Source: Halogeometricum pallidum JCM 14848 (GTDB taxonomy: Archaea > Halobacteriota > Halobacteria > Halobacteriales > Haloferacaceae). Taken from it: DNA of 34,116 bases. Positions 27,061 through 32,755 of this stretch are shown one piece after another. The notes under the pieces were generated by a model. That model saw only the letters and a list, made by a program, of their open reading frames with translations. It did no database searches and was not told the origin of the DNA. How positions within the stretch are numbered: the stretch's first letter is position 1; the number at the start of each line of letters is the position of its first letter. The DNA lies in the NCBI RefSeq assembly GCF_000337095.1, contig NZ_AOIV01000043.1:9360-43475 (forward strand). Direction: 5' to 3'. Both the position numbers and the translations under genes were made by a program.

Positions 27061-28413
27061 ATGGACGTCGGTCCCGTCCCTGACAGGCGCGCGTACCTCC
27101 GCGCGGTCGGCAGCCTCGGCCTCGCCTCGCTGGCAGGATGCGCCGCGGACGGACCCGACCCCGCCGTCACCCTCCCGTCGTCCGCGCTGACCGACGGACC
27201 GGTCCGCATCGTCGTCGAGAACCTCGATCCCGGCGCGCCGGTGACGCTCCGCGCCTCCGCCCGCGCCCGCGATGGGGAGGAATGGGCCTCCCACGCGGCG
27301 TTCGAACCGAACGCCGACGGCGTCGTCGCCGTCCCGGCGCGGGCGCCTCTCGACGGTACGTACGACCGCGCGGACGCGATGGGTCCCTTCTGGTCGATGC
27401 GACCGACGGACGCACCCGCGGACCGTCCGCTCTCGCCGGGTACGCGGTTCACGCCGCCGCAGGGCGCCTACGACGTGACACTCGCCGTCGAACGCGACGG
27501 GGAGACGGTCGCAGAGGCGATGACGACTCGACTGCTGTCCGACCCCGACGTCGAATCCCGGCCCATCGGCGACGGACTCGTCGGCCGGTTCTTCGCGCCG
27601 CCCGGCGACGACCCCGTCCCGGGCGTCGTCCACCTCCACGGCGCCGGCGGCCGGGCGCACCTCGCCACGGGCCGGCTACTGGCCTCGCGCGGTATCGCGA
27701 CGCTGACGCTCCGGTACTTCGGCGACCCCGGCCCGATTCCGAACACGCTGGCGGAGGTGCCGGTGGAGTACGTCGAGCGAGCGGTATCGCGGCTCCTCGA
27801 ATACGACCGGGTGGCCGGTCCGGCCGTCGGCCTGTTCGGGTTCTCTCGCGGCGGATCGCTGGCGCTTCTCGCGGCGAGTCGGAGCGATGCGGTCGGCGCC
27901 GTCGTCGGGTGGGTGCCGAGCGGACTCGTCTGGGAGGGACTCGGTTACGGCCGCGGGCCGGCGGGTACCTCGGCGTGGTCCGCCGACGGCGACCCGGTCC
28001 CGTATCTCGAACTCGCCGAGGTGGACCCCGGACCCCCGCCGGCGCCCGCGCTTCCGTACTACGAACCGGCGCTGAACGACGCGACCGAGGCGGAACTGGA
28101 CGCGGCCGCTATCGCCGTCGAGGACGCCGGTGCGCCGGTGTATCTGGTCTCCGCGGCGGACGACCGACGGTGGCCGTCGACGGCGTTCTGCGACCGCGTG
28201 ATGAGTCGTCTCGACGCCGCGGATTACGCACACGAGTACCGACACGACGGGCACCCGGGTGCGGGACACTACCTCCGACTACCGTACCTCCCGACGCCGG
28301 GCATCTCGCGGGACCGCTACAACGTCTACGGCGGGACGCCGGCCGCGAACGCGCGCGCCTCGGCGTCGGCGTGGTCGGAGACGCTGGCGTTCCTGCGGAC
28401 CGCGCTGGTGTAA
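27061..28413 (+). CDS. Lipoprotein alpha/beta hydrolase of the acyl-CoA thioesterase/BAAT family
   Basis: This 450-residue protein has a twin-arginine-like start (DRRAYLRAVG, Arg9-Arg10) and lipobox LAGC (Cys27), so it is probably exported and lipid-anchored. Residues about 40-165 form a beta-rich N-terminal domain as in acyl-CoA thioesterase/bile-acid-CoA:amino-acid N-acyltransferase proteins. The rest is an alpha/beta hydrolase with nucleophile Ser262 in FGFSRGGSL, Asp367/368 in AADDRRWP and His403 in GAGHYLRLP. The mammalian transferases use Cys; Ser here favours hydrolase activity. An extracellular location makes CoA esters unlikely substrates, so it may act on other esters. It converges on the aspartoacylase-like gene. 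Confidence 0.82.
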   Translation: MDVGPVPDRRAYLRAVGSLGLASLAGCAADGPDPAVTLPSSALTDGPVRIVVENLDPGAPVTLRASARARDGEEWASHAAFEPNADGVVAVPARAPLDGTYDRADAMGPFWSMRPTDAPADRPLSPGTRFTPPQGAYDVTLAVERDGETVAEAMTTRLLSDPDVESRPIGDGLVGRFFAPPGDDPVPGVVHLHGAGGRAHLATGRLLASRGIATLTLRYFGDPGPIPNTLAEVPVEYVERAVSRLLEYDRVAGPAVGLFGFSRGGSLALLAASRSDAVGAVVGWVPSGLVWEGLGYGRGPAGTSAWSADGDPVPYLELAEVDPGPPPAPALPYYEPALNDATEAELDAAAIAVEDAGAPVYLVSAADDRRWPSTAFCDRVMSRLDAADYAHEYRHDGHPGAGHYLRLPYLPTPGISRDRYNVYGGTPAANARASASAWSETLAFLRTALV

Positions 28414-28445
28414 GACGGGCGGGAGCGAGCCTCAGGATCACAACC

Positions 28446-28552
28446 GCTCGGTTCGGAGCGATAAAACGCTCCTTCAGGACCAAGGCCGCTCTCTCCGAAC
28501 GACCGCGCTCGGTTCGGAGCGATAAAGCGCTCCGTCAGGACCACGGCCGCTC
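28446..28552. repeat. Two-copy 46-bp hairpin repeat in a convergent gap
   Basis: Two near-identical units (28446-28491 and 28507-28552, period 61) share a GCTCGGTTCGGAGCGATAAA core, then an inverted GGAGCG/CGCTCC stem around a 6-nt loop (ATAAAA or ATAAAG), then CAGGACCA. The 15-nt link completes a second stem, CCGAAC/GTTCGG. A degenerate partial third copy precedes them (about 28421-28450). The last 18 bases of unit two are coding in the opposing gene and contain its stop. Each unit can fold in both directions, so it may act as a bidirectional terminator, or it may be a dispersed genomic repeat. Confidence 0.7.
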
Positions 28553-32452: not shown

Positions 32453-32755
32453 CCGGGCTGTGTTCTGATTCCACGAAACCGTCGAACGCGCCGCCGCCCT
32501 TTCTCGTCCCCTTCGCACCGCTGTGAACGACGACCGGGCCGCCGGAACGACAGACGAGGACGGACCACGAGCGTCCGACGATAGAAGCGAGGAGCGCTAA
32601 AAGCGAGAGTGCGGACTCCGACGCTGAGTACTGCAGGCCGTACAAGAACCTCGAACGGGCGTTCACGGAGTGGACTGCGTTCGCGACGCAGAGACGCTCC
32701 GCGGACTATCGAGCGGTACGCCCGAACCGAGGCGAAAAACGAACCCGCCTCGGGT
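32453..32755. other. 303-bp convergent gap without a gene
   Basis: No convincing coding frame: open frames here are short, Arg/Ser-rich and lack promoter support. It holds a nested imperfect hairpin at 32666-32701 (CGGAGTG/CGCTCCG outside, CTGCGT/ACGCAG inside, 5-nt loop). A stretch at about 32590-32608 is weakly like the core of the hairpin repeat near 28450. A small RNA or decayed repeat is possible. Confidence 0.4.

Follow-up and report, generated by a model that had tools for sequence, protein, structure and literature searches.

Bacterial REP, BIME and REPIN elements are short palindromes, sometimes arranged in tandem, that lie at gene ends, and a passage in PMC2817692 gives usually more than 100 REP copies per genome. 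In haloarchaea, T-stretch terminators of the T5C type are intergenic and lie downstream of the gene, and the transcript ends at a run of T closed by a C (PMC7237163). In Haloferax, 503 mapped transcript ends have hairpins closely upstream of them, and a hairpin that was tested in vivo stopped 59% of transcripts (PMC7237163). The ending of haloarchaeal transcripts without a T-run is poorly known. Hairpin stems can also have a purely mutational history, as template switching is documented to create and to repair them, compensatory changes included (PMC8794818). The element described here lies at the 3' end of a deacylase gene in a window of 34,116 nucleotides (the whole stretch of DNA that was analysed) from Halogeometricum pallidum JCM 14848, a member of the Haloferacaceae, and looks like a gene-end signal, not a mobile repeat. 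On balance we favour, without great confidence, a conserved hairpin at the 3' end of the deacylase transcript that works without a T-run, as terminator or stabiliser, and was multiplied by slippage or template switching; the functional part of this proposal is inferred from the comparisons given below.

A tandem hairpin repeat of 46-bp units with period 61 and a degenerate third copy had been proposed from a sequence-only reading of the window, and this repeat is real. It consists of two 47-bp copies (28445-28491 and 28506-28552) that are 94% identical and start 61 nt apart. The proposed core GGAGCG-ATAAA(A/G)-CGCTCC is present exactly at 28455-28472 and 28516-28533, and no further match to it occurs in the whole window at up to 3 mismatches (0.07 expected). 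The sequence TCAGGACCAMGGCCGCTC has a third copy, with 3 mismatches, at 28432-28449 (0.11 expected). The look-alike suspected near 32590 does not match within 3 mismatches and has a stem of only 3-4 bp, and it was treated as a chance occurrence. The features of the locus are listed in Table 1.

Table 1. Features of the deacylase gene end and its surroundings (positions in the window)
Feature	Position	Strand	Basis
Acyl-CoA thioester hydrolase/BAAT-like gene, 450 aa, convergent neighbour	27061-28413	+	
Unit B, degenerate third copy GAGCGGTTGTGATCCTGA GGCTCGCTCC..., similar to the second copy of G002	28419-28449	-	
Unit A', second copy, without the remainder of the linker: gene end plus apical hairpin with loop TTTTAT	28450-28491	-	
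Unit A, 61 nt, comprising end of gene with stop codon, apical hairpin and inverted gene-end copy	28492-28552	-	
Outer stem of unit A: GAGCGGCCGTG (28542-28552) paired with CGCGGTCGTTC (28497-28507)	28497-28552	-	RNAfold -35.8 kcal/mol, z -3.88; fold shared with other species
Apical hairpin of unit A: CGGAGCG-CTTTAT-CGCTCCG, immediately 3' of the stop codon	28515-28534	-	Fold; covariation
AstE/AspA-type deacylase gene, 342 aa	28535-29563	-	ORF; Pfam AstE_AspA_cat PF24827, E 1.2e-39

The deacylase had been read as ending inside the last unit, which we confirm: its last five sense codons (GAG CGG CCG TGG TCC) and the stop codon TGA belong to the repeat and make up the region of the 5' arm in unit A. 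In the orientation of the deacylase, every copy begins as the gene ends, with GAGCGGCCGTGGTCCTGA for the gene itself and GAGCGGCCTTGGTCCTGA for the second copy, both encoding ERPWS-stop. In Haloferax, Halobellus and Halogranum, the nearest orthologs of the deacylase mostly have an ERPW-type end and carry no repeat, from which it follows that the gene end came first and was copied to give the repeat. The idea that an element had invaded or been captured at the gene end thus inverts the order of events: what is repeated downstream is the end of the gene itself. With near-identical head-to-tail copies at one locus and a copy number that differs between species (1 to 3, at a spacing of 58-61 in Halogeometricum and 60 in G037, a genome of another genus), the array has the properties of a local tandem repeat of the minisatellite type. 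The copy number of 1-3 and the gene-end copies that alternate between direct and inverted orientation suggest that the copies arose through slippage or template switching.

All Halogeometricum genomes examined have the unit at the end of the deacylase gene, with three copies in the H. pallidum genome, two each in G002, G003 and G004, and one weaker hairpin in H. limi. In all of these and in G037, which was found by searching 148 genomes of the family and carries two near-identical 60-nt units, the hairpin begins 0-1 nt after the deacylase stop codon. The same position is taken in a third genus, where G008, found by a search with the G037 sequence, has three gene-end copies and its congeners G054 and G097 share the architecture; two of the five orthologs in this genus (G092 and G112) have other hairpins. 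In G037 an in-frame loss has reduced the deacylase to about 77 codons (L279:1255-1518), leaving the N-terminus and the last ~25 residues while the catalytic domain is gone. The element persists there despite the gutted gene. Haloferax, Halobellus and others have a similar gene end and lack the element, which is therefore dispensable. The ortholog of Haloarchaeobius iranensis (L065:4037-4170) has a gene-end duplication of its own (18/20 identical, spacing 91) whose letters are unrelated.

This distribution refutes, for the genomes examined, the earlier suggestion of a REP-like dispersed element. REPs and REPINs are extragenic, occur in high dispersed copy number and go with a repeat-flanked RAYT gene (a Y1 transposase), whereas the element at the deacylase end is a single locus, overlaps coding sequence through the last five sense codons and the stop, and has no linked RAYT gene. 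No second copy was found by blastn in the 4.38-Mb genome, where the next best DNA matches are 14-29 bp long and lie mostly inside genes; weak matches clustered on the linker were set aside as mostly coding words. A search of the same genome with a structure model clearly found only the deacylase-end locus, and in the relatives copies occur only at the deacylase 3' end. Plasmids yielded no copy, and the two exact matches in viruses are hairpins of AT-rich phage DNA and unrelated to the element. That a dispersed REP/REPIN-like or other mobile palindrome was inserted at this gene end is hardly credible: the palindromic, tandem structure at a gene end and the presence of an IS200-type Y1 transposase in the genome would suit it, but the two Y1_Tnp matches lie on contigs C19 and C21, and the repeat is on C43 only.

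The conservation of the element is that of a fold. RNAfold predicts one shape for unit A in H. pallidum, G004, G002, G003 and G037, in which the last codons and their inverted linker copy form an outer stem of about 11 bp, an internal loop holds the stop codon, and an apical hairpin of 5-7 bp follows 0-1 nt past the stop. The whole is a palindrome of about 56 nt in which the last codons form one arm. The linker stem CCGAAC/GTTCGG noted previously does exist, but folding favours the longer outer stem between the linker and the terminal codons of the gene. The shape was also found in G008, G054 and G097, so that an architecture with differing letters is common to four of the five Halogeometricum genomes examined, a second genus and three species of the third.

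Pairing is preserved across three genera while the letters of the stems change. In nine Halogeometricum units, 92.6% of the cells of the apical stem are paired, and covariation is 0.639 compared with 0.189 in shuffles (0/500); for both helices in six units the paired fraction is 95.5% against 85.5% (0/500 shuffles). When the third genus is included, 130 of 140 base-pair cells are paired in a nine-species alignment made by hand on structure, where shuffles give a mean of 77% and a maximum of 87%; in G097 just four of six apical pairs are formed. A covariance model trained without the third genus found the gene end of G008 at E 0.0044 as its best match beyond the training genomes, and the other gene ends of that genus weakly (E 0.08-0.7); a sequence-only model misses the gene-end copy of G008. 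Such pairing, kept through changes on both sides, is what characterizes a conserved structured RNA element. No Rfam family matched above its curated gathering score, and the sub-threshold matches were attributable to chance.

The loop varies differently. Its last five bases read YYYRY in all nine gene-adjacent units, a pattern that was spotted after the fact in units related by descent and not independent of each other. Pairwise comparisons of the nine units gave 86 transitions and no transversion in the loop (0/180), and 39 transitions and 82 transversions in the stem (82/216). This suggests a strand-specific constraint beyond what mutational repair of the stem alone would give. A function of the TTTTAT loop as promoter was set aside, because the loop can also read CCCGT and there is no gene after it on the minus strand. 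We may speculate that the YYYRY loop of a stop-codon-spanning hairpin is read on one strand by a protein of termination or 3'-end processing, as a T-run-independent haloarchaeal 3'-end signal kept across genera and multiplied in tandem, but we consider this specific version rather unlikely.

A specialised bidirectional terminator had been suggested as the function. Of this, a terminator-like role is still our preferred guess at the function, since the hairpin lies between convergent genes and is conserved by covariation, although the classical T-run is missing: none follows the stem in five species, and in four of the five no run of at least four T occurs within 400 nt, the sole TTTT being inside the loop of copy A'. 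Without a T-run after the stem, the element is neither a bacterial intrinsic terminator, defined by a G+C-rich hairpin followed by T-run, nor a haloarchaeal T-stretch terminator, and a consensus search gave no terminator-like sites. It resembles most closely the hairpin-associated transcript ends of Haloferax volcanii (PMC7237163), a type defined by a mapped RNA 3' end no more than about 10 nt from a hairpin, being likewise a terminator-like gene-end hairpin without a classical T-run; it differs in that its stem takes in the last codons, covaries across genera and is tandemly duplicated. Gene-end hairpins in the H. pallidum genome are only modestly above chance (34 vs 22 and 47 vs 30, on gene calls from a simple codon-composition script). 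If the element acts as we propose, the RNA would fold into the long hairpin once the last ribosome has gone, and the hairpin would end or pause transcription without a T-run and/or cap the mRNA 3' end against exonucleases. It might also limit read-through into the convergent gene. Slippage or template switching acting locally on the palindrome would have produced the tandem copies, of which the extra ones could provide reserve capacity or be neutral.

A symmetric terminator that serves both convergent genes equally seems improbable to us. The palindrome folds on either strand, and the junction is convergent in H. pallidum, G004, G002, G003, G037 and G008, the element staying while the partner gene changes; nevertheless, the conserved loop pattern is that of the deacylase strand, and the unit is built from the deacylase end, with the thioesterase end playing no part. 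The main rival to the terminator or stabiliser is stem repair by template switching. In that case a hairpin of chance origin, through slippage during replication and template switching, could have given rise to the tandem and inverted copies, and the same processes could keep repairing the stem of a neutral, functionless palindrome; we hold this to be a serious explanation, if a doubtful one. The gene-end copies alternate direct, inverted, direct, an arrangement of a direct copy, an inverted copy and a second direct copy (X - inverted X - X) is found at other gene ends of the genome too, and the inverted beside direct copies and compensatory stem changes are what template-switch-generated hairpins show (PMC8794818). 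Moreover, local direct repeats are equally common at gene ends and elsewhere in the genome, and gene-end duplication was accordingly dismissed as a special phenomenon. What neutral upkeep leaves unexplained is that YYYRY is kept on one strand, uninverted, while the stem changes freely, and that three genera have the element at one and the same gene end. The fixed position at one gene and the strand-specific loop suggest constraint in addition to template switching. For the 3'-end hairpin that we favour, one gene end offers a natural series with one, two or three hairpins, an intact or gutted gene and replaced stem letters, by which selection on the hairpin could be separated from its upkeep by template switching.

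Similar layouts elsewhere in the genome were surveyed in 2.42 of the 4.38 Mb. A genome-wide class of hairpins with the same loop was rejected, as 9 were found, 2 of them at the deacylase end, where 6 were expected. The X - inverted X - X layout occurs at 10 of 412 local direct-repeat loci. Downstream of a tRNA-Met gene (L160:2327-2760; G000 C41:162327-162760), part of its 3' end recurs three times, once inverted and twice direct, with intervening hairpins (loops TTTCAT and TTTTAT), so that this locus has the layout and loop type of the deacylase-end element; the arrangement is conserved in the genus. Direct copies flank an inverted copy at four further gene ends (G000 C43:1728-1817, C25:11622-11716, C45:222319-222461 and C6:73488-73623), two of which belong to protein genes and two to sequences resembling tRNA 3' ends. 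At G000 C3:175016, on the minus strand, the end of a gene, including its stop codon and a strong hairpin, occurs three times with period 77 and TTTTT tracts, and these repeats look like tandem terminators.
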